In this document: positions 2,763 through 16,152 of the stretch, piece after piece
Layout: each line of letters begins with the position of its first letter
Position numbering within the stretch: position 1 is the stretch's first letter
Origin: Bradyrhizobium sp. 200
GTDB lineage: Bacteria > Pseudomonadota > Alphaproteobacteria > Rhizobiales > Xanthobacteraceae
DNA length: 64,000 nt
Assembly (NCBI RefSeq): GCF_023100945.1
Contig: NZ_CP064689.1
Span: 4,818,001-4,882,000 of the forward strand
Direction: 5' to 3'
Position numbers and translations under genes: made by a program
The notes under the pieces: model-generated
Database searches by the model: none
Seen by the model: the letters and a program-made list of their open reading frames with translations, nothing else
What the model was told of the DNA's origin: nothing

Positions 2763-3245
2763 CTACCTTCGGCCAGACTTAGCCTTCGCGGCGGGAGCGC
2801 GCCTCGCGCGTGCGGCAGCGGCCGTCTTTTTCAGCACGGGCTTTTTTGGCTCGCAATTACATGCATCTGAAGCCGGAGCCAGGAGATTGCACAACTCAGG
2901 ATGCCCGTCGCAGCAGTCGTTGACCAGGAACGATAGCAGGGTCTGCATGCCCTCCACGTCTGAGCGGTAGATGATGGTGCGTCCTTCGCGCGAGCTTCTC
3001 AGCAGACCCGCTCGCACCAGAATTGCCAGATGGCTCGACAACGTATTGTGCGGCGCACCTATGGTATCGGCAATCACTCCCGCGGTGATTCCGACAGGTT
3101 CGTGCTTGACCAAGAGACGGAAGATCGCGAGCCGTGTTGGTTGCGCCAGGGCGGCAAGCGCTGAAATCGCATGTGCTTCGCTGAACTTACCTCCAGATGA
3201 GATGGGGCCGGCATGACTCGCTACAGCCAACATGGTTTTGCGCAT
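2763..3245 (-). CDS. arsR: ArsR-family arsenic-responsive repressor (copy 1)
   Basis: This is a winged-helix metalloregulator of about 160 residues. The HTH core reads GAPHNTLSSHLAILVRAGLL, and a cysteine motif NDCCDGHPELC follows the DNA-binding domain. That C-terminal cysteine cluster is the type used for As(III) sensing in several alphaproteobacterial ArsR proteins. The tail is Lys/Ala/Arg rich. An ATG at 3245 preceded by GGAGGA was chosen; an in-frame TTG at 3308 would add 21 residues without clear conservation. It is divergent from aioBA, and the shared intergenic region carries a perfect inverted repeat and two direct repeats, so it probably controls itself and perhaps the oxidase genes. 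Confidence 0.9.
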   Translation of the reverse strand: MRKTMLAVASHAGPISSGGKFSEAHAISALAALAQPTRLAIFRLLVKHEPVGITAGVIADTIGAPHNTLSSHLAILVRAGLLRSSREGRTIIYRSDVEGMQTLLSFLVNDCCDGHPELCNLLAPASDACNCEPKKPVLKKTAAAARARRAPAAKAKSGRR

Positions 3246-3330
3246 TGCTTCGACCCGTCCTCCGACTCCAAATTTCCTTCCGTCTTTTAACCGACACACA
3301 GGTGACAAGCTAGAATGTTTCTATTATTAA

Positions 3331-3451: not shown

Positions 3452-3471
3452 GCGTGCCTGGGAGAACGTCC

Positions 3472-3993
3472 ATGAGCCATTGCGATAAGATGGTTGATGC
3501 CGGTCGCCGCCGATTTTTGGGTGGCGCGGGCTTTGCTGCCGCAGGAGCGGCGGTTGCAACAATGGTGCCGGGTCGGGCCAAGGCCGCACCTGGCGCAGCG
3601 CGGGTTGACTATCCTTCCAACCGCCTTGCCAATATCGCCGATCTCAAGCCGAACGAAGCGTTCACCGTCGCTTATCCCGACACAGACGCTCCGGGCGTGT
3701 TGCTTAAACTGGGCAAGCGCGTGCCGGGTGGCGTCGGCGCCGATGGCGATATCGTAGGGTTTTCGACGATCTGCCCGCACAAGGGATTTCCGCTCAACTA
3801 CAACGCCGCGGATAAGACTATGAACTGCCCCGGGCATTACTCGCGTTTTGACTGCGAGTCCGGCGGCCAGCAGGTCTGGGGTCAGGCCACGCAAAACCTT
3901 CCGCAATACGCGCTACGCATCGACGGCAAGGGCGACATCTATGCCGAAGGCGTGGACGAGCTTTTGTTTGGCCGCCTGTCCAACGTGTTGTGA
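3472..3993 (+). CDS. aioB: Arsenite oxidase small subunit, Rieske [2Fe-2S] protein
   Basis: This is the 173-residue Rieske subunit of periplasmic arsenite oxidase. It passes electrons from the molybdenum subunit to a c-type cytochrome or copper protein. A twin-arginine signal (RRRFLGGAGFAAAGAA, residues 12-27) fits export of the folded heterodimer. The Rieske ligands are CPH (C101, H103) and CPGH (C119, H122). The extra cysteine pair that forms a disulfide in betaproteobacterial AioB is absent: Phe106 and Gly121 occupy those places, as known for the alphaproteobacterial NT-26 type. The start at 3472 has a GGGAGA ribosome site. aioA follows after 10 nt, so the two form an operon. Confidence 0.96.
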   Translation: MSHCDKMVDAGRRRFLGGAGFAAAGAAVATMVPGRAKAAPGAARVDYPSNRLANIADLKPNEAFTVAYPDTDAPGVLLKLGKRVPGGVGADGDIVGFSTICPHKGFPLNYNAADKTMNCPGHYSRFDCESGGQQVWGQATQNLPQYALRIDGKGDIYAEGVDELLFGRLSNVL

Positions 3994-4003
3994 GGAGAAG
4001 ATC

Positions 4004-6466
4004 ATGGCTTACAAGCGTCAAATTGACCGTCTCCCGATTGTCCCCAAGGACGCCAAGGAGTTCAACGTCACCTGCCAATTCTGCATCGTCGGCTGCGGGT
4101 ATAAGGCTTACACATGGCCTGCCAACAAGCAGGGCGGCACCGCCCCGGATCAGAACAAGTTCGGCGTCGACCTTAGCAAGCAGCAACCGCCCGAGACAAG
4201 TGCGTGGTACGCGCCCGCGATGTACAACATCGTGCGCCAGAACGGTGATGATGTTCACATCGTCATCAAACCCGACAAGGACTGCGTTGTGAATTCCGGG
4301 CTTGGCTCGGTGCGCGGCGCGCGCATGGCCGAGATGAGCAACTCGCAGCAGCGCAACACCCAACTGCAACGCCTGACCGACCCCATGGTTTGGCGCTACG
4401 GGCAAATGCAGCCGACCGGCTGGGACGACGCGCTGGATCTGGTTGCGCGCGTGACCATCGCCGTTATCAACGACATGGGCGAGGACGGATTATTCGTTTC
4501 AGCCTTCGATCATGGCGGTGCCGGCGGCGGCTATGAGAATACCTGGGGCACAGGCAAGCTCTATTTCGGGGCGATGAAGGTCAAGAACATCCGCATCCAT
4601 AATCGCCCAGCCTATAATTCCGAAGTTCACGCCACGCGTGACATGGGCGTAGGCGAACTCAACAATTGCTATGAGGATGCAGAGCTTGCCGACACAATCG
4701 TCGCGGTTGGCACCAATGCGCTGGAGACCCAGACCAATTATTTCCTGAACCATTGGGTGCCGAATCTTCGCGGCAGTTCGATGGACAAGAAGAAGGCCGA
4801 GTTCGGTTCCGAAGCCATCGCGCGCGGACGCATCATCGTCGTCGATCCGCGACGCACCGTCACCGTCAACGCCTGCGAAGTCGAAGCCGGAAAAGACGGT
4901 GTGATGCATCTCGCCATCAACTCCGGCTCCGATCTCGTGCTGTTTAATGCCTGGCTGACCTACATCGCGAGCAAGGGTTGGATCGACAAAGCGTTCATCG
5001 ACGCCTCGACCAACAATTTCGACAAGGCCCGCGCCGCCAACGCCGTCTCACTCGACGAGGCCGCACGCCTCACCGGGCTGACTGCCGATCAGATCCGGCA
5101 ATCGGCGGAATGGATTGCGCAGCCCAAAATGGGCAACGCACGACGCCGGACCATGTTCGCGTATGAGAAGGGCCTCATCTGGGGCAACGACAATTACCGC
5201 ACCAACGCCGCGCTGGTGAACGTGGCGCTGGCGACTGGCAATATCGGACGTCCGGGCGGCGGCTGCGTGCGCATGGGCGGCCATCAGGAAGGCTATTCTC
5301 GACCATCCGATGCGCATGTCGGGCGTCCGGCAGCTTACGTCGACAAGTTGCTGATCGAAGGCAAAGGCGGCGTGCATCACATCTGGGGATGCGACCACTA
5401 CAAGACCACGCTCAACGCCTTCAATTTCAAGCAAGCCTACAAGAAACGCACCGACATGGTGAAGGACGCGATGATGACGGTGCCGTACGGCGACCGCACA
5501 GCAATGGTGAATGCCATTGTGGGCGCGGTCAAGAAAGGCGGCTTGTTCGCGGTCGATGTAGATATCGTGCCGACCAAGATCGGCGAAGCCTGCCACGTCT
5601 GGCTTCCGGCCGCGACGTCGGGAGAAGCCGATCTCACCTCAATGAATGGCGAGCGGCGCATGCGCCTGACCGAGCGCTACATGGACCCGCCCGGCCAGGC
5701 CATGCCGGATTGCCTGATCGCGGCGCGCATCGCCAACAACATGGAACGCGTGCTTCGCGAGCAAGGCAAGGGGCAATACGCCGATCAGTTCAGGGGCTTC
5801 GACTGGAAGACCGAGGAAGACGCCTTCATGGACGGCTACCACAAGCATGAAAAAGGCGGCGAGTTCGTCACCTATGAACGCCTCCGCGCAATGGGGACCA
5901 ACGGCTTCCAGGAGCCCGCGACCGCCTTCACCGATGGCAAGATCATCGGCACCAAGCGCCTCTTCGCCGACGGCAAGTTCGGCGGCAAGGACGGCAAGGC
6001 GACGTTCATGGAAACCCAGTGGCGCGGATTGCAGGCGCCCGGCAAGGAACAGGAGCGCAAAACATTCCCGTTCCTCGTCAACAACGGCCGCGCCAACATC
6101 GTCTGGCAGAGTGCGTATCTCGATCAGGACAACGAGTTCGTCATGGATCGTATGCCGTACCCGTACATCCAGATGAATCCCGACGACATGGCCGAGCTAA
6201 AGCTCAAGCAGGGCGATCTCGTCGAGGTCTACAACGACAACGGCTCGACGCAGGCGATGGTTTATCCAACGCCAACGGCGAAGCGTAAGCAGACCTTCAT
6301 GCTGTTCGCGTATCCAACCGGGGTGCAGGGTAACGTGGTCTCGGCGGGCGCGAACGAATTCGTCATTCCAAACTACAAGCAGACCTGGGGAAACATTCGG
6401 AAGCTAGCCGATGCGCCGGAAGGCGTGAAGCATCTGACCTTCAAGTCACCTGAGTACACGGCCTGA
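4004..6466 (+). CDS. aioA: Arsenite oxidase large subunit, molybdopterin type
   Basis: This 820-residue protein of the DMSO reductase superfamily oxidises As(III) to As(V) at a bis-molybdopterin guanine dinucleotide centre. The [3Fe-4S] motif is C24-x2-C27-x3-C31 in TCQFCIVGCGY, and a serine in GLGSVRG takes the place of the fourth cluster cysteine, as is usual for AioA. Length is close to characterised AioA (about 825-845). It has no signal of its own and should be co-exported with AioB by the Tat system. The start at 4004 follows a TGAGGAGA ribosome site. No aioC cytochrome or molybdenum-cofactor gene follows; a terminator and a minus-strand gene lie downstream. Confidence 0.97.
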   Translation: MAYKRQIDRLPIVPKDAKEFNVTCQFCIVGCGYKAYTWPANKQGGTAPDQNKFGVDLSKQQPPETSAWYAPAMYNIVRQNGDDVHIVIKPDKDCVVNSGLGSVRGARMAEMSNSQQRNTQLQRLTDPMVWRYGQMQPTGWDDALDLVARVTIAVINDMGEDGLFVSAFDHGGAGGGYENTWGTGKLYFGAMKVKNIRIHNRPAYNSEVHATRDMGVGELNNCYEDAELADTIVAVGTNALETQTNYFLNHWVPNLRGSSMDKKKAEFGSEAIARGRIIVVDPRRTVTVNACEVEAGKDGVMHLAINSGSDLVLFNAWLTYIASKGWIDKAFIDASTNNFDKARAANAVSLDEAARLTGLTADQIRQSAEWIAQPKMGNARRRTMFAYEKGLIWGNDNYRTNAALVNVALATGNIGRPGGGCVRMGGHQEGYSRPSDAHVGRPAAYVDKLLIEGKGGVHHIWGCDHYKTTLNAFNFKQAYKKRTDMVKDAMMTVPYGDRTAMVNAIVGAVKKGGLFAVDVDIVPTKIGEACHVWLPAATSGEADLTSMNGERRMRLTERYMDPPGQAMPDCLIAARIANNMERVLREQGKGQYADQFRGFDWKTEEDAFMDGYHKHEKGGEFVTYERLRAMGTNGFQEPATAFTDGKIIGTKRLFADGKFGGKDGKATFMETQWRGLQAPGKEQERKTFPFLVNNGRANIVWQSAYLDQDNEFVMDRMPYPYIQMNPDDMAELKLKQGDLVEVYNDNGSTQAMVYPTPTAKRKQTFMLFAYPTGVQGNVVSAGANEFVIPNYKQTWGNIRKLADAPEGVKHLTFKSPEYTA

Positions 6467-7529: not shown

Positions 7530-8387
7530 ATGAACGAAAGTGTTCGCGAAGCGAGTGCCATAGAAGGTTTTGGATCGCTTGCGCAGGCGACCCGCCTTGC
7601 CGCGGTACGCCATCTCCTCGCCGTCCATCCGCAGAGTCTGCCCGCCGGTGAGATCGCGCGGCTCTGCGAGGTGCCGCACAACACCATGTCATCGCACCTC
7701 AGCATTTTGAGCCGCGCCGGTTTGGTCTCCGTCGAGAAGGACGGCCGCTCGATGAACTATCGGGCAGATGTCGGTGGATTTAGGGGCTTGCTCGAATTTC
7801 TCTCGCGGGACTGCTGTAACGGCCGTCCCGAACTCTGCGGCGATGCTTTCGATCTACCGTCCGAAGCAACGGGGAAGTTCATGACGCCTGCATTCAACGT
7901 GCTCTTTCTGTGCACCCAAAATTCGGCCCGCTCGATCATCGCCGAAGCCCTGCTCGAGAAGATCGGCCGTGGCCGCTTCCGGGCCTACTCCGCCGGTTCG
8001 GAGCCGGCCCGAGAACCCGTTCCCGAAGTCATCGACCGGCTGAAGGCGCTCGGGCATGACGTGTCGCGCCTGCATTCGAAGTCGTGGGATGAGTTCAGAG
8101 GACCGCAAGCTCCCCGTATGGACTTCATCATCGCGCTTTGCGACGCACCGAATGGCCAGTTTTGTCCGGACCTCGGCGCTCAGTTCGTCACTGGCGCCTG
8201 GCCGCTACCCGACCCGGCGCAGTTCACGGGGTCGTCCACTGAGCGCACCACGCTTCTGAACGAACTCTACGCCATGATCCGGCGCCGCATTGAAATCTTT
8301 ACAAGCCTTCCGTTCGACTCGCTGGACCGTATGGCGATCAAGGCGCGGCTGGACGAAATCGGCGATACAACGCGCGTATCCCCTTAA
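7530..8387 (+). CDS. arsC: ArsR-ArsC fusion: arsenic repressor joined to LMW-phosphatase-type arsenate reductase
   Basis: This single 285-residue chain has two domains. Residues 1 to about 110 form an ArsR winged helix ([20 protein letters not shown]) with the sensing motif [11 protein letters not shown]. Residues about 118-285 form an arsenate reductase of the low-molecular-weight tyrosine phosphatase fold, with the CX5R loop CTQNSAR right after the first strand ([12 protein letters not shown]). It would repress the operon until As(III) binds and would also reduce As(V) to As(III), probably with thioredoxin or glutaredoxin. Such fusions are known but uncommon. The gap to the GAPDH gene is 11 nt, so it leads an arsRC-gap-arsJ operon. 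Confidence 0.93.
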
Positions 8388-9445: not shown

Positions 9446-10675
9446 ATGGTCCGAAACTACCTCATAGTAACCGCATCCTATTGGGGCTTCACGCTCGTCG
9501 ACGGCGCGTTGCGTATGCTGGTCCTGTTCCATTTTTTCCGACTGGGTTATACGCCGTTCACTCTTGCGTTCCTGTTTCTGCTTTATGAAGCGGCGGGAAT
9601 CGGCGCCAACCTCGCCGGCGGCTACTTCGCTTCGCGTTTTGGCATTCCCCGCATGCTCGCGATCGGACAGATGCTCCAGATTGCCGGCTTGCTCATGTTG
9701 TCGGCGCTCAATCCGGGTTGGGGAGCAGTGGCATCGGTCGCATGGGTCGTTATCGCCCAGGGCATAGCGGGCGTCGCCAAGGATCTGACCAAGACCGCAT
9801 CGAAGTCGGCGATCAAGGCAACCTCTGCGGAGGGCAGTGGGCAACTTTTCCGGTGGGTCGCCTGGTTCACCGGCTCGAAGAACGCAATGAAGGGAATCGG
9901 GTTCTTTCTCGGCGGTCTTCTGCTCGATCTTGCAGGCTTCGTCCATGCGCTATGGCTGATGGCCGCCCTGCTCGGCATAGTCTTCGTCGCGGGGCTGCTG
10001 CTCCTGCCATCGCAGCTTGGCAAAGCAAAATCGTCGAAAACCATCCGCGAACTGTTCGGCAAGTCGCGCGGCGTGAATCTCCTGGCGGCTGCGCGCATCT
10101 TCATGTTCGGGGCAAGAGACGTCTGGTTCGTCGTTGGCCTGCCCGTCTTTCTCTATGCCTACGGATGGAAGTTCTTGCAGGTGGGCGCTTTCCTGGCCGC
10201 CTGGACCATTGCCTATGGCGGCGTGCAGGCTATCGCGCCCTCGCTCGTAAGCCGTAGCACGGACGGCCTGAGCCGCGAGGTGCCGGCGGCAAGAATCTGG
10301 GCTGCGCTGCTTGCGGCCGTGCCAATCGCCTTGGCCGTGATCATGAACTCAACCGACGTCGGACGTCCTGATATTGTCCTCGTGGTCGGGCTGGCGCTTT
10401 TCGGGCTGCCCTTCGCCGTAAACTCGTCGCTGCATTCGTATCTCATTCTGGCCTACGCCGGATCGGAAAAGGCCGCAGAGGATGTTGGCTTCTACTATGC
10501 CGCCAATGCGGTCGGCCGCCTTCTCGGCATTACGCTATCCGGCGTGCTGTATCAGGTCGCGGGCATCACGGGGTGCCTGATCGGCTCCGCGGTCATGTTG
10601 TTGTTGTGCTCGCTGATCACATTCCTGCTTCCGCAGAACGCAGATTTATCGACGGCAAGACCTGCCTCGGTCTGA
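9446..10675 (+). CDS. arsJ: ArsJ, MFS efflux permease for 1-arseno-3-phosphoglycerate
   Basis: The 409-residue membrane protein has about 12 hydrophobic segments and the ArsJ-type N-terminus (YLIVTASYWGFTLVDGALRM). It begins 3 nt after the GAPDH stop codon, so translation is probably coupled. Known ArsJ proteins work with the neighbouring GAPDH to expel arsenate as an organoarsenical that hydrolyses outside the cell. Together the pair gives As(V) resistance without reduction. Downstream it meets arsH head-on. Confidence 0.92.
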   Translation: MVRNYLIVTASYWGFTLVDGALRMLVLFHFFRLGYTPFTLAFLFLLYEAAGIGANLAGGYFASRFGIPRMLAIGQMLQIAGLLMLSALNPGWGAVASVAWVVIAQGIAGVAKDLTKTASKSAIKATSAEGSGQLFRWVAWFTGSKNAMKGIGFFLGGLLLDLAGFVHALWLMAALLGIVFVAGLLLLPSQLGKAKSSKTIRELFGKSRGVNLLAAARIFMFGARDVWFVVGLPVFLYAYGWKFLQVGAFLAAWTIAYGGVQAIAPSLVSRSTDGLSREVPAARIWAALLAAVPIALAVIMNSTDVGRPDIVLVVGLALFGLPFAVNSSLHSYLILAYAGSEKAAEDVGFYYAANAVGRLLGITLSGVLYQVAGITGCLIGSAVMLLLCSLITFLLPQNADLSTARPASV

Positions 10676-10699: not shown

Positions 10700-10729
10700 G
10701 GGTTCTTGCGATTTCACGCCCTAGAACCC
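10700..10729. terminator. Possible hairpin between convergent arsJ and arsH
   Basis: GGGTTCT (10700-10706) and AGAACCC (10723-10729) can pair around a 16-nt loop and overlap the arsH stop codon. There is no U tract, so a terminator role is only tentative. Confidence 0.25.
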
Positions 10730-11481
10730 ATCCGCTGATGCGCCGTCGCAATCGCTGAAAGATCCGACGCGGCATCACGTTCCGGACCGGCGGCCGCCCT
10801 GCGCTCCGAGTAGCGGTCCGTCAGGGTCGCGACGTGGGGCCGGAGCAGGACCGTGAAGCGAACGAGCTCTTCGACGACGTCGACGATCCGTTCGTAGTAG
10901 CTCGATGACTTCATCCGGCCGGTCTCGTCGAACTCCTGGAATGCCTTTGGAACGCTCGACTGGTTGGGAACGGTGAACATCCGCAGCCAGCGCCCCAGCA
11001 GCCGTAGCGTGTTGACGGTGTTGAAGGACTGCGAGCCGCCGCAAACCTGCATGACCGCCAGCGTTCGGCCTTGGGTTGGCCGCATACCACCCATGTTGAG
11101 CGGCAGGTGATCGATCTGCGCCTTCATGACACCTGTGATCTGGCCGTGCCGCTCCGGACTGCACCAGATTTGCCCCTCCGACCACATCGACAGCTCACGC
11201 AGCTCCTGCACCGCCGGGTGATTGTCGCCCTTGAACTGATCCGGCAACGGGAGGTCGGATGGGTCGAAGATGCGCGGTTCAGCCCCAAAGAAGCGGACAA
11301 GCCGAGCGGCTTCCTCGACAACCAGACGCGAATAGGAGTGCTCCCGCAGCGATCCGTAGAGAAGCAGGATGCGTGGCGGATGCCGGGGGCCGGCGGCCAG
11401 GCCGCTCGCCTGGATTTGCGATGCGTGGCGCGTGTTGAGGGCGGGCAGGAAGTCGGGATCGGATAGTGTACGAACTCTCAT
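10714..11481 (-). CDS. arsH: ArsH, NADPH-dependent FMN reductase / organoarsenical oxidase
   Basis: The 255-residue flavodoxin-like protein has the FMN phosphate loop [10 protein letters not shown] and the ArsH signature [20 protein letters not shown]. ArsH family members oxidise trivalent methyl- and aryl-arsenicals to the less toxic pentavalent forms and also reduce quinones or metals. It lies 79 nt downstream of arsR copy 2 on the same strand and is probably co-transcribed with it. The length is typical of the family. Confidence 0.93.
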
Positions 11482-11560: not shown

Positions 11561-11923
11561 TCAGACATCGGCCCTCCCCTTCGGCCTTGGCTGGCAACAC
11601 GGCGTGAGGTCTTCTATCAGCGGACCGCAAATTTCCGGCCGCCCGTCGCAACAATCCCGGAGCATGAACAGCACAACGCCCTGCAGGCGGCCCAGCTCGG
11701 CGCGATAGACGATCGAGCGGCTGACCCGCTGCGCCGATACCAGTCCGGCGCGTGACAGCACCGACAAATGCGAGGACATGGTGTTTTGCGGGACCGCGAG
11801 CGCCCTGGCGATGTCGCCAGCCGCAAGCCCGTCCGGCTCATACTTGACCAGCAAGCGAAACACATCGAGACGGGTCGATTGGGCGAGTGCGGCAAGCGCA
11901 ATAATGGTATCCTCTGATTCCAT
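11561..11923 (-). CDS. arsR: ArsR-family repressor (copy 2)
   Basis: This compact 120-residue ArsR has the [22 protein letters not shown] and the As(III)-type motif RDCCDGRPEIC, plus a further cysteine pair near the end (TPCC). It is closely related to copy 1 and to the ArsR half of the fusion. It precedes arsH and is divergent from arsR copy 3, with only 98 nt between them, so the two repressors share a control region. Confidence 0.92.
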   Translation of the reverse strand: MESEDTIIALAALAQSTRLDVFRLLVKYEPDGLAAGDIARALAVPQNTMSSHLSVLSRAGLVSAQRVSRSIVYRAELGRLQGVVLFMLRDCCDGRPEICGPLIEDLTPCCQPRPKGRADV

Positions 11924-12021: not shown

Positions 12022-12339
12022 ATGAAAATCGATGACGCTGCCGCCCATCTCGAAGCTCTGGGCAATCCGACCAGACTCAAGATCTATCGCGCGCTGATCC
12101 GCGCCGGCGGGGCCGGGCTTGCGGTCGGGCGGCTGCAGGAGAAACTGAAGATCGCGCCCTCCACCCTCTCCCACCACATCAAGGCGCTGGTGGTGGTCGG
12201 CTTGGTGACCCAGGTGCGCGATGCAACGACGCTGATCTGCCACGCCAACTACGAAGTGATGCGGGAGCTGGTGGGTTTTCTGGTCGAGGAATGCTGTACG
12301 GAGAGCGCTGAAACCACGGATGCCAAGACCGCGGCATAG
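12022..12339 (+). CDS. arsR: ArsR/SmtB-family repressor (copy 3, divergent type)
   Basis: The 105-residue protein belongs to a different ArsR branch from the other copies: HTH KIAPSTLSHHIKALVVVGLV and a C-terminal VEECC cysteine pair in place of DCCxGxPE(L/I)C. The start has no clear ribosome site and lies about 7 nt after the predicted -10 box, so the message may be nearly leaderless. It heads a plus-strand run with the ArsO-like flavoprotein and two MFS genes and probably controls them. Confidence 0.88.
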   Translation: MKIDDAAAHLEALGNPTRLKIYRALIRAGGAGLAVGRLQEKLKIAPSTLSHHIKALVVVGLVTQVRDATTLICHANYEVMRELVGFLVEECCTESAETTDAKTAA

Positions 12340-12376: not shown

Positions 12377-12394
12377 TTTCATGGGAGGATAAAC

Positions 12395-13759
12395 ATGAGC
12401 GAAGCCAAGACCGTCGCCATCATCGGAGCCGGACCGGTCGGCCTCGCCGCCGCCGCTCACGTGCTGGAGCGCGGTTTGCAGCCGATCGTGCTGGAAGCGG
12501 GCGACGCGGTCGGCCACGCCATGCGGCAATGGGGCCACGTCCAGTTGTTCTCGCCATGGGAATACAATGTCGACAAGGCCGCAGCGCGCCTGCTGGCGAC
12601 GATCGGCTGGAATTCTCCCGAACCCGACCAGTACCCGACGGGCGCGGAGATGGTGGAGCGCTATCTCGAGCCGCTCGCCAACGTCACCACGCTCAAGCCC
12701 CGCATCCGCACGTCGAGCCGCGTCACCGGTATCAGCCGGGTGGGCTTCGACAAGCTCAAGACCAAGGGCCGCGAAACGGCGCCGTTCGAAATCCGGTATC
12801 AGAACGGGAAAGGCCCCGAGATCGTCAAGGCCGATGCGATCATCGACGCATCCGGAACCTGGCATTCGCCGAATCCTGCGGGCGCGAACGGCCTGCCCGC
12901 CATCGGCGAGACAGAGGCCGCCGACAGGATCGCTTACGGCATGCCAGACGTGTTGGGTAAGGACCGCGCGCGCTATGCCGGCAAGACCGTAGCCGTGCTG
13001 GGCGCCGGGCATTCCGCGATCGGCACGCTGACCGATCTGGCGAAGCTTGCGGCAGAAGTACCCGAAACCCGGCCGGTCTGGCTGTTGCGCGGCAGCGATC
13101 CCGCCAAGGCCTTCGGCGGCGGCGCCAATGACAAGCTGGTCGCCCGCGGCGAACTTGGCGCCGCCTTCGCCGCACTGGTAACGGCAGGCCGGATCAAGGT
13201 CGAAAGCGAATTTCGTGTCTCGCATCTCGTCGCCGACGGCTCTCGCCTCGTTGTCGGTGCCATATCCGGCTGCAGCGCCCGTCGGGCTGTGGTCGACCAA
13301 CTCATCGTCGCGACGGGCTTTCGCCCCGACCTGGATTTCGTGCGCGAACTGCGTACCCGGCTCGACTCCGCCATCGAGTGCCCGGCCGCGCTGGCGCCGC
13401 TGATCGATCCAAACGAGCATAGCTGCGGCACCGTGCGGCCGCACGGCGCCCGCGAACTGGCGCAGGACGAACCCGCCTTCTATTTCGCGGGCATGAAATC
13501 CTACGGCCGCGCGCCGACCTTCCTGATGCTTACGGGATACGAGCAGGTGCGCTCGATTGCCGCCGACATCGCCGGAGACCGCGAGGCCGCGGAGCGGGTC
13601 GAACTGGTCCTGCCGGAGACCGGCGTCTGCAGCCGGTCGCTCGCACCAGATGCCAGCAATTGTTGCGGCGGCCCTGCATTATCGGATGTTGACGCGTGTT
13701 GCGTCGCCGATGAGAAAGCAAAGCAGCAAGGCAAGACGGGATGCGGCTGCGTGTCCTGA
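12395..13759 (+). CDS. arsO: ArsO-like FAD/NAD(P)-dependent monooxygenase with cysteine-rich tail
   Basis: The 454-residue flavoprotein has two Rossmann motifs, GAGPVG at 11-16 (FAD) and GAGHSAIG at 203-210 (NADPH), in the flavin monooxygenase / thioredoxin reductase-like fold. Proteins of this kind in ars clusters are called ArsO; the reaction is not settled. The last 43 residues are unusual: seven cysteines (C412, C423, C424, C435, C436, C450, C452), including two CC pairs and a final CGC, separated by charged linkers. This looks like a soft-metal or As(III) binding tail. The start has a strong GGGAGGA ribosome site. It lies in a run with arsR copy 3 and two MFS exporters, which suggests it modifies or binds an arsenical before export. 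Confidence 0.82.
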   Translation: MSEAKTVAIIGAGPVGLAAAAHVLERGLQPIVLEAGDAVGHAMRQWGHVQLFSPWEYNVDKAAARLLATIGWNSPEPDQYPTGAEMVERYLEPLANVTTLKPRIRTSSRVTGISRVGFDKLKTKGRETAPFEIRYQNGKGPEIVKADAIIDASGTWHSPNPAGANGLPAIGETEAADRIAYGMPDVLGKDRARYAGKTVAVLGAGHSAIGTLTDLAKLAAEVPETRPVWLLRGSDPAKAFGGGANDKLVARGELGAAFAALVTAGRIKVESEFRVSHLVADGSRLVVGAISGCSARRAVVDQLIVATGFRPDLDFVRELRTRLDSAIECPAALAPLIDPNEHSCGTVRPHGARELAQDEPAFYFAGMKSYGRAPTFLMLTGYEQVRSIAADIAGDREAAERVELVLPETGVCSRSLAPDASNCCGGPALSDVDACCVADEKAKQQGKTGCGCVS

Positions 13760-13768
13760 CAAAAGGGA

Positions 13769-14977
13769 GTGAACGGAATTTTTCTGGAGGGACGCTCCGT
13801 TATCGTCGCGATGTGCCTGGGGCAACTTGGCAGCCTGCTTCCGCACGTCGTCGTGCCTTCCATCCTTGCCGCGTTCCTGATTCCGGAGTGGCATCTCAGC
13901 GGCGCGCAGGCAGGCCTGCTGGCGGGCTCGGGCGCCGCCGGTTACATGCTGACCGTGCCAGTGCTGGCAACACTCACCGACCGCATCGACGCGCGCAGAA
14001 TCCTGATTGCAGGCTCCGCGCTCAGCGCACTCGGAACATTGCTATTCGGCTTGTTCGCGACCGGCCTGTGGTCAGGCGCCCTTTTCAACGCGATCGCAGG
14101 CGTGGGCTTTGCCGGCGCTTATATGCCCGGCCTCAAGGCGCTGACGGATCGTCTCGCGCCCGGAGATTCATCCCGTGCCGTCACGCTCTACACGTCGAGC
14201 TTCTCATTCGGGGTCAGCTTGTCATTTCTGGTTTCTCAGCTCGTCGCAGAAGCCTGGGGCTGGCGCAGCGCATTCTTCGTCACAGCCGCCGGGCCGCTCG
14301 TGATGCTGTCCGTCTGCTTTCTGCTTCGACCGGTCGCGCCGAAGCCGGCGTTTGGACGCCTGCTGGATTTCGCGCCGGTGTTCCAGAACCGGAAAGCCAT
14401 GGGCTTCGTCCTCGGCTACGGCGCGCATTGTTTCGAGCTGTATGCCATCAGAACCTGGATCGTGGCATTCTGGACCTTTGTCTCGCTGAGAAATTCAGAC
14501 GCTCCGCTTTTAACTCCGATCGTAGTCAGCGTCGTGTTCTCCCTGCTCGCCATGCCCGCAAGTATTCTCGGCAATGAACTCGCGCTCAAGTTCGGACGCC
14601 ACCGCGCCGTCACAGCGGTGATGTCCTCCTCCGCCGCCGTAGCGCTTCTGATCGGTGCATTCGCCGACAGGTCGCCCTGGTTGCTACTGCCGCTGGTGCT
14701 CGTCTATGCCATCACGGTTCCAGCCGACTCCGGCGCGTTGACCTCGGGCATGTCGATGGCCGCCGATCCCAGCTACCGCGGCGCGACCATGGCGATGCAT
14801 TCCACCGTCGGCTTCAGCCTGTCCGCACTGGGCGCATGGGCGCTGGGCGTCGCGCTGGATGCAGCGGGCGGCCCACAGAGTTCATCGGCCTGGATGGCCG
14901 CATTTTCGGTGCTGGCGGCGGGCATTCTGCTTGGACCGCTGGCGCTCTATTGGTCAAGAAGAGAGGCGCCACAGTGA
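13769..14977 (+). CDS. MFS transporter (first of tandem pair)
   Basis: The 402-residue protein has about 12 membrane helices and an MFS loop (TDRIDARRILIAGSALSALG). It starts at GTG 13769, 10 nt after the flavoprotein stop; an in-frame ATG at 13811 is an alternative start that would shorten the first helix. The last codons overlap the start of the next gene (GTGA). The position in the ars run suggests export of an arsenical made or bound by the ArsO-like protein. Similarity to the arsenic exporter ArsK is possible but cannot be confirmed by eye. Confidence 0.85.
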   Translation: MNGIFLEGRSVIVAMCLGQLGSLLPHVVVPSILAAFLIPEWHLSGAQAGLLAGSGAAGYMLTVPVLATLTDRIDARRILIAGSALSALGTLLFGLFATGLWSGALFNAIAGVGFAGAYMPGLKALTDRLAPGDSSRAVTLYTSSFSFGVSLSFLVSQLVAEAWGWRSAFFVTAAGPLVMLSVCFLLRPVAPKPAFGRLLDFAPVFQNRKAMGFVLGYGAHCFELYAIRTWIVAFWTFVSLRNSDAPLLTPIVVSVVFSLLAMPASILGNELALKFGRHRAVTAVMSSSAAVALLIGAFADRSPWLLLPLVLVYAITVPADSGALTSGMSMAADPSYRGATMAMHSTVGFSLSALGAWALGVALDAAGGPQSSSAWMAAFSVLAAGILLGPLALYWSRREAPQ

Positions 14978-16152
14978 ACCGCAGCCAGCTTTCCATCATT
15001 GTCGCGCTCGGCACAACGCAGACCCTAGCCTGGGCTTCGAGCTACTACATACCTGCGATCCTCGCCGATCCGATCGCGCGCGATCTCGGCGTTTCCTCGA
15101 CCTGGGTGTTTAGCGCTTTCTCTGCCGCGCTGGTGCTGTCGGCCCTGATCGGACCACGCGTCGGGCGTCAGATCGACCTCGTCGGCGGCAGGTCCGTGCT
15201 GTCGATGTCCAATCTGGTGCTGGCGGCGGGCCTCGTGCTGCTGGGCTTCACCACGTCGATATCCCTGCTCGTCGTCGCCTGGCTGCTGCTCGGCGTCGGC
15301 ATGGGCGCGGGCCTTTACGATGCCGCCTTTGCCGCGCTTGGGCGCATCTATGGCGAAGCGGCGCGGCGCTCGATCACCGGCATTACGTTGTTTGCGGGCT
15401 TTGCCTCGACGGTCGGATGGCCGCTGTCGGCCTGGGGGCTGGAGACCATCGGCTGGCGCAACACCTGCTTTGCCTGGGCGGCGGCGCACATTTTGATCGG
15501 CCTGCCCTTGAACTGGTGGATGCTGCCGGCCGTCACGGGGGCGAAGGCCGCCCTTGCCACCGCCGTCAAGCCGCATATCCCGATCGACCGCACCATGATC
15601 GTATTGGCCTTCGTATTCGCCGCGGCCTGGACCGTCACCGGCGCGATGGCCGCGCATCTGCCGCGCCTCATGGAAGCCGCCGGCGCAACGGCCACGCAGG
15701 CGGTGTTCGCCGGCGCGCTGATGGGCCCTGCGCAGGTGGCCGGGCGGATCTTCGAGGCGAGCTTTCTCAGCCGCTACCATCCGCTGGTCTCGACCAAACT
15801 CGCCTGCATCACGCATCCGATTGGCGCGGCGATCCTCGGGCTGGCCGGCGGCGGCGCGGCCAGCGTGTTCGCGATCTTTCACGGCGCCGGCAATGGCATC
15901 CTGACGATTGCGCGCGGCACGCTGCCGCTCGCGATCTTCGGCCCGGAGAATTATGGCTATCGCCTCGGCATCATCGGCGCGCCGGCCCGGATGGCGCAAG
16001 CAGCCGCTCCCCTGCTGTTCGGGCTGCTGATCGAGGCCATGGGCGCCCGGGTTCTGATCGTCTCCTCCGCGCTCAGCATCGCGGCGCTGCTGGCGCTGTT
16101 CCTGCTGCGCAAGATGCCGCCGCGGACGAAACCGCAAACGGAATGCGAATAG
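14974..16152 (+). CDS. MFS transporter (second of tandem pair)
   Basis: The 392-residue protein with about 12 helices begins SQLSIIVALGTTQTLAWASS, a form typical of MFS proteins often annotated next to arsenic or organic-acid genes. It starts at GTG 14974, overlapping the previous stop by four bases, so the two transporters are translationally coupled. The two proteins are not close paralogues: their N-termini and loops differ. They may be two exporters with different substrates or, less likely, a heteromeric pair. Confidence 0.85.
   Translation: MNRSQLSIIVALGTTQTLAWASSYYIPAILADPIARDLGVSSTWVFSAFSAALVLSALIGPRVGRQIDLVGGRSVLSMSNLVLAAGLVLLGFTTSISLLVVAWLLLGVGMGAGLYDAAFAALGRIYGEAARRSITGITLFAGFASTVGWPLSAWGLETIGWRNTCFAWAAAHILIGLPLNWWMLPAVTGAKAALATAVKPHIPIDRTMIVLAFVFAAAWTVTGAMAAHLPRLMEAAGATATQAVFAGALMGPAQVAGRIFEASFLSRYHPLVSTKLACITHPIGAAILGLAGGGAASVFAIFHGAGNGILTIARGTLPLAIFGPENYGYRLGIIGAPARMAQAAAPLLFGLLIEAMGARVLIVSSALSIAALLALFLLRKMPPRTKPQTECE

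Follow-up and report, generated by a model that had tools for sequence, protein, structure and literature searches.

Two described flavoproteins, ArsV and ArsO, are the points of reference for the protein discussed here. As far as title and review statements go (Zhang 2022; Chen 2021), ArsV is a flavin monooxygenase that oxidises methylarsenite or organoarsenicals as well as antimonite and is widespread in soil bacteria. Review statements also give ArsW as its exporter partner, a review table names Paracoccus sp. SY as its source organism, and arsV of Achromobacter is reported among the genes induced under antimonite (PMC11719878). For the described arsO, a further paper cites the strain FR-008 (PMC6514093). 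Here we consider a window of 64 000 nucleotides, i.e. the whole stretch analysed, from Bradyrhizobium sp. 200 (contig NZ_CP064689.1), which carries an arsenic resistance (ars) island and, in it, the gene of a flavoprotein that ends in a tail with seven cysteines. An earlier note, made from the letters alone, had called this protein ArsO-like and had seen in the tail a soft-metal trap, or a chaperone handing As(III) to the active site or to the exporter of the major facilitator superfamily (MFS) encoded by the next gene. Our analysis suggests that the enzyme is of a kind already known and widespread, of which the cysteine tail would be a long-kept trait; the enzyme probably oxidises toxic trivalent arsenic, and the tail probably grips the arsenic and feeds the enzyme with it.

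The cysteine-rich tail and its conservation

The protein (454 residues) is encoded by a single open frame with an ATG start (Table 1). Its ten cysteines are at positions 293, 329, 344, 412, 423, 424, 435, 436, 450 and 452. Seven of them fall within the last 43 residues (412-452), exactly where the earlier note had placed them, and this clustering exceeds chance (p = 4e-6 for random placement; p = 3e-8 at the rate of the body, which has 3 cysteines in 411 residues). The tail also lies outside the stretches matched by Pfam and NCBIfam, which stop at residue 323. The linkers between its cysteines had been described as rich in charged residues, which they are not: Asp, Glu, Lys and Arg account for 21% of the tail versus 23% of the body in the window protein, and for 16% versus 22% across the 116 rows of the family alignment presented below. 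In these rows 52% of tail residues are Ala, Gly, Pro or Ser, 11% are bulky hydrophobics and 0.5% are His; the tail may be viewed as an extension past the matched domains that is low in complexity, rich in cysteine and flexible in appearance. The window protein has the glycine-rich motifs GAGPVG and GAGHSA, and E34 and R232 are invariant in the 116 rows; we take these to be marks of binding of flavin adenine dinucleotide (FAD) and of reduced nicotinamide adenine dinucleotide, phosphorylated or not (NAD(P)H). Judging from the cysteine positions, the body lacks both CxxC and CxxxxC.

Had the tail been a local oddity, as the earlier note allowed, it should be absent from all close homologues. On the contrary, among 8000 sequences scored, the 120 close relatives listed all hold the core TG[VI]C...CC, with the full seven-cysteine pattern in 115, one cysteine lost in two and an early end in three, and all 120 have HSCG around C344; we therefore reject a local oddity. 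An alignment of the window protein with 115 of 120 candidate loci (116 rows, the fragments L026, L027, L062, L076 and L077 being dropped) gives C344 and C412 in all 116 rows, C423 in 114 and C424 in 112; for the distal cysteines the counts are 71 (C435), 69 (C436), 59 (C450) and 55 (C452), and 44 rows have GCGC. A search with a query freed of its tail gave a match at E ≤1e-20 in 18 of 398 genomes of the phylum (the window's own included), in all 18 of them at ≤1e-108, while in the own genome the next-best match after the flavoprotein reached 27.7 bits over 42 model positions; the family is thus sharply bounded. Leaving aside the window protein itself, this search yielded 17 members, two of which are also in the 116-row set; all 17 have both C344 and C...CC. 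A second search, centred on a divergent member (L165, 44% identity over the body), showed HSCG or HTCG in all of the 120 matches listed.

The core is kept down to 44% identity and in seven labelled phyla: Pseudomonadota (39/39 rows), Actinomycetota (17/18), Chloroflexota (8/8), Bacillota (7/7), and Verrucomicrobiota, Bacteroidota and Acidobacteriota (1/1 each), to which are added 39 of the 41 rows that bear no label of phylum at NCBI. The GCGC-type end is found in 30 of the 39 labelled Pseudomonadota; no row assigned to another phylum has it, and among the 41 rows without a label 15 do. On a tree built from the body only, the core underwent 2 changes, compared with 13 for the GCGC-type end and 35 for the number of CC pairs. 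Tails reach up to 11 cysteines, and their number is odd in 99 of the 116 rows, i.e. one lone cysteine plus pairs; beyond C412, 454 of 575 cysteines are vicinal, when 104 would be expected by shuffling.

No other protein of the own genome was found to carry such a tail (the flavoprotein gene stands alone at E ≤10), and there was no match at E ≤1 on other proteins among frames of at least 60 residues in 94 family loci and 20 control stretches; sharing of the tail by other proteins is rejected on these two scans. Short proteins gave 237 matches to the tail at E ≤10. Among the 120 of these that were listed, most of those with a recorded size are on contigs below 10 kb, and two short matches bear the name partial FAD-dependent oxidoreductase. 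Stand-alone tail peptides were rejected, the short matches being read, without proof, as fragments.

Family identity

The body matches Pyr_redox_3 of Pfam with 61.3 bits (cut-off 30), as expected of a flavoprotein that binds FAD and NAD(P)H. The solved structures nearest to the family profile include thioredoxin and bacillithiol disulfide reductases, and also a flavin-dependent monooxygenase. The label 'ArsO-like' is justified only at the level of the superfamily: ArsO (Streptomyces FR-008, NF040505) and the window protein both belong to the FAD/NAD(P) superfamily and both occur in ars clusters. Membership in ArsO is another matter: the window protein scores 55.1 bits with NF040505, whose curated cut-off is 425. 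The two are not the same gene either, because on plasmid pSSFR1 of Streptomyces sp. FR-008 a single cluster holds separate genes for the annotated ArsO and for a protein of our family, two genes apart. Unlike the window protein, the ArsO annotated on this plasmid has 356 residues, one cysteine and no cysteine tail.

The setting of the gene points to ArsV. ArsV is a flavoprotein with the exporter ArsW as partner, and in the window an MFS gene comes next after that of the flavoprotein, within an ars island; the order arsR, flavoprotein, MFS, ArsK-like MFS makes the ArsV-ArsW couple the best fit. What is to be expected of ArsV, a place in an ars cluster and an MFS exporter as partner, is found both in the window and in the family, an MFS gene being directly downstream in 52 of 94 loci (39 have none there and 3 have no room for one). 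The flavoprotein thus appears to be of the ArsV type. No model named ArsV is among the NCBIfam matches of the window proteins, and no description of the tail was found in the literature searched, which did not extend to the two primary ArsV papers.

Genomic context

Table 1. Coordinates of the flavoprotein gene, its parts and its neighbours in the window
Feature	Position	Strand	Basis
ArsJ, same ars island	9446..10675	+	NF033734, 517.4 bits (cut-off 400)
ArsH, same ars island	10714..11481	-	TIGR02690, 376.4 bits (cut-off 292.25)
ArsR/SmtB regulator just upstream of the flavoprotein; Cys in LICHANYE, CC near the C-terminus	12022..12339	+	NF033788, 61.9 bits (cut-off 55)
GGGAGGA, ribosome-binding-like site upstream of the flavoprotein	12383..12389	+	read from the sequence
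FAD/NAD(P)-binding flavoprotein, presumably of the ArsV type	12395..13759	+	Pyr_redox_3 match, family alignments
C344 codon, in DPNEHSCGTVRPHG	13424..13426	+	Cys present in all sets examined
Tail core LPETGVC...CC, residues 406-424: lone C412 and vicinal pair C423-C424	13610..13666	+	alignment, 116 rows
Distal tail, variable extension: pair C435-C436 and GCGC (C450, C452)	13697..13756	+	alignment, 116 rows
MFS transporter directly downstream, putatively ArsW-like by position	13769..14977	+	PF07690, 101.4 bits
Second MFS transporter, ArsK-like, overlapping the end of the first	14965..16152	+	NF033733, 214.4 bits (below the ArsK cut-off of 400)

The surroundings of the family were read from 80 named loci with flanks of at most 10 kb (some shortened by contig ends), an ars-specific gene being counted from 40% identity and ArsR from 35%. 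The former is present in 54 of the 80 loci, the latter in 62, and either of them in 66. As controls we used 20 stretches of 20 kb from eight genomes, all of the window's class: none has a marker, and a single weak ArsB match (30%) stays below the threshold.

Members of the family are also found on plasmids (124 of 72 556 plasmid records at E 1e-40). We chose by hand, from lists, 21 distinct annotated plasmid stretches, leaving uncounted L146, which is unannotated there, and L190, which repeats L119. Eighteen of them hold a gene with an arsenic name, two (L114 and L118) ArsR/SmtB only, and one, from Roseomonas (L111), neither. L114 is the 10-kb mobilizable plasmid SAP008A of Staphylococcus sp. 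693-2, on which ArsR and the flavoprotein are the sole annotated metal-related genes; it comes from poultry litter, an origin suggestive of organoarsenical feed additives. In Bacillota a small MTINHAG-like protein of 68-73 residues, not rich in cysteine, is encoded beside the flavoprotein (L117, 8345-8554; L195, 6353-6559; L114, 4583-4804; L115, 2-208); none of the four has a Pfam match, and the two tried against NCBIfam have none there. One further member, with an actinobacterial-like tail, is in a record from human faeces named 'UNVERIFIED: Bacteriophage sp.' (MT835669.1, L189), which may be mislabelled bacterial DNA.

The island of the window holds more than the genes of Table 1. On the forward strand are the genes of arsenite oxidase, which together span 3454-6466, with the small subunit at 3454-3993 (195.8 bits, cut-off 95.65) and the large one from about 3998 (1297 bits, cut-off 359), giving the cell an additional As(III) oxidase, a dedicated one. 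They are followed, at 7530-8387 on the same strand, by ArsR fused to an arsenate reductase of the low-molecular-weight-phosphatase type, and an ArsR-ArsC2 fusion is mentioned in a published text (PMC6514093). There are at least three stand-alone ArsR genes, at 2763-3308 (-), 11561-11923 (-) and 12022-12339 (+). The first two products have the motif DCCDG(H/R)PE(L/I)C and the third only CC near its end; with such different cysteine motifs the three regulators may sense different arsenicals. The second MFS protein, with 214.4 bits against 400, stays short of the ArsK threshold.

Discussion

Starting from the anatomy of the tail, its conservation and its ars context, which are observed, we infer that the tail binds a metalloid and transfers it to C344, that C344 is near the flavin and that the enzyme works as a dimer. 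The reading that we favour, and to which we would give about an even chance, is that of an ArsV-type oxidase of trivalent arsenicals and antimonite in which a thiol arm delivers the metalloid to the flavin site. Inside cells, thiols bind trivalent arsenicals and antimonite. The vicinal pairs of the tail, aided by the lone C412, would capture the trivalent metalloid from glutathione or protein thiols, with two or three thiolates each; the arm would then swing it into the active site of its own chain or of the dimer partner, possibly via C344, and there it would be attacked by flavin-bound oxygen. As an FAD-containing, NAD(P)H-dependent enzyme, the protein is predicted to turn methylarsenite into methylarsenate and antimonite into antimonate. 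Where an MFS protein is encoded next to it, this neighbour would export the oxidised product, and in the window's lineage the distal pair and GCGC would add binding capacity. An arm that captures and delivers fits the data because the core consists of one cysteine and a vicinal pair on a flexible arm, to which C344 is added in the body; the distal pairs are labile on the tree and hence look like added capacity. Vicinal cysteines are the stated methylarsenite site of ArsR regulators that respond to this compound, and they are also the predicted methylarsenite site of a protein that we read as ArsI (PMC6514093). Of the earlier proposal of a trap or chaperone for soft metals, this much holds as the best-fitting reading, given a conserved low-complexity tail with a lone cysteine and vicinal pairs and the excess of ars context (66/80 versus 0/20). 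A more detailed version can be put forward only tentatively: the enzyme would be a flavin monooxygenase with an arm of the MerA type put to use in oxidation, in which a swinging multi-thiol tail, made of the lone C412 and vicinal pairs, passes the soft metalloid to an active-site C344, with a fixed core, freely added pairs and a shrunken form in a gammaproteobacterial branch, where five inspected loci lack neighbouring ars genes.

A number of observations weigh against this reading. The FMO-like family PF00743 is matched with 18.6 bits, below its gathering cut-off of 22, and the likeness to ArsV is one of description and gene order. The core is retained in 12 of the 12 full-length named members in whose surroundings neither an ars-specific gene nor ArsR was detected, so that the link between the tail and an ars setting is not a strict one, which also answers the earlier note's question of whether the tail occurs only in ars clusters; some of these members are on short contigs, and two (L042 and L058) are next to an ArsK-like MFS gene. 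CC is missing from three of the 116 rows (L092, L114 and L115) and from the plasmid member L195: in the Streptomyces protein (L092), which has two tail cysteines, the tail is replaced by about 70 cysteine-free residues that end in GC, and in the staphylococcal L114 and L115 and the Priestia L195 spaced cysteines stand in place of CC.

The same direction is taken, on a larger scale, by the search centred on L165, which exposed a branch with a reduced tail and led us to reject a universal three-cysteine core. Forty-nine of its 120 listed matches (P0241-P0289) are without LPxTG[VI]C and have 0-3 tail cysteines (none in two rows, both short and perhaps cut, one in 17, two in 21 and three in nine), and C...CC is retained in only 6 of the 49. 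Names in the branch include Aliiglaciecola, Marinobacter, Alcanivorax and Cobetia, which we read as marine gammaproteobacteria. The other 71 listed matches hold C...CC in 63 cases; in 5 the cysteines are spaced, and 3 sequences appear to be cut short. The tail would thus be dispensable for the fold and perhaps for catalysis, and the 49 rows speak against an obligatory role. Six reduced-tail loci were inspected. Five (L182-L185 and L170, the last being the site of L165 itself) have no ars-specific or ArsR marker within 17-20 kb, L170 showing a trio of MarR, flavoprotein and MFS; the sixth (L188), whose tail ends in ACCS, has ArsR nearby, along with a permease that bears a weak resemblance to ArsP. 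Two loci from the same bacterial family with full tails (L186 and L187) adjoin ArsN. Altogether a marker is present in 64 of 76 named loci with a core tail versus 1 of 6 with a reduced tail (Fisher 0.001, uncorrected for relatedness). A search for the reduced-tail protein on viral contigs found nothing.

Other roles for the tail can be imagined. It might act only as a sink, i.e. a tethered metallothionein-like stretch that buffers trivalent arsenic or soft metals without any transfer to the active site, and its low complexity, its richness in cysteine (up to 11) and the 35 changes in pair number would suit this idea; but the enzyme retains the core even as additional pairs are gained and lost, the tail is on no other protein in the scans of the own genome and of the family and control loci, and a one-to-one tether would presumably do less well than a free peptide, so that we hold a pure sink to be unlikely. 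The presence of C344 in all sets examined, together with the thioredoxin and bacillithiol disulfide reductases among the best solved relatives, recalls a thiol redox relay running from NADPH through FAD and C344 to a dithiol of the tail. The protein would then be no monooxygenase, but a single-cysteine flavin reductase of disulfides or of arsenic, equipped with a C-terminal resolving pair. To this relay we attach a small probability, since the body has neither CxxC nor CxxxxC, 19 of the 49 rows of the reduced-tail branch have at most one tail cysteine, and ArsV is published, by its title, as an oxidising flavin monooxygenase.

The handing of As(III) to the next-gene exporter, on which the tail would dock to load it, draws on the MFS gene that follows in 52 of the 94 loci and on the richer tails found there (median of 7 cysteines versus 4). 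Yet the core, kept in 52 of these 52, is kept as well in 35 of the 38 full-length proteins whose gene has no MFS gene directly after it (a 39th is a fragment), which tells against handover as the general role. Phylogenetically independent pairs give no link with cysteine number or GCGC, although 12 such pairs (median p 1) are too few to be a strong argument, and the product to be exported would be pentavalent and as such a poor thiol binder; loading of the exporter is therefore very unlikely in our eyes. Cysteine pairs bind many soft metals, so the tail could be meant for Zn, Cu, Cd or Hg, or be a stress-sensing redox switch, and mer genes are indeed nearby in 2 of the 21 plasmid stretches. 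However, both of these also carry ars genes, arsenic-named genes are in 18 of the 21, and His, common in Zn and Cu sites, is rare in family tails; we consider another metal or a switch improbable.

An unannotated tail is thereby linked with a flavoprotein that is common in ars clusters, that databases name in generic terms only ('NAD(P)-binding domain-containing protein', 'FAD-dependent oxidoreductase') and that is now separated from ArsO. Clear predictions attach to three cysteine sites, C344, C412 and C423-C424. If an oxidase with a delivering arm is the right reading, the arm would explain how such an enzyme gains access to trivalent arsenic that the thiols of the cell hold bound, and the tail would in itself offer a peptide for the binding of arsenic and antimony.

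Comparison with other known systems

MerA is, like the protein described here, an FAD enzyme. A cysteine pair in the flexible C-terminal region of MerA hands Hg(II) over to the opposing monomer, at its active site (PMC4500099), and the pair C423-C424, present in 114 and 112 of the 116 rows respectively, would be its counterpart; the difference is that MerA has a CXXXXC in its active site and reduces Hg(II), whereas the flavoprotein body is without CXXXXC. Three cysteines close together are also a feature of AfArsR, where they lie in a short, disordered segment of a single chain and bind As(III) (PMC11212059); AfArsR, however, is a regulator and not an enzyme. Finally, ArsH has been reported as a methylarsenite-oxidising flavoprotein of ars clusters, which is the activity proposed for the window flavoprotein, although one study found it to be a reductase, in contrast with the reports of an oxidase (PMC9137774). 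In any case ArsH belongs to a separate Pfam family (FMN_red) and has its own gene in the island.
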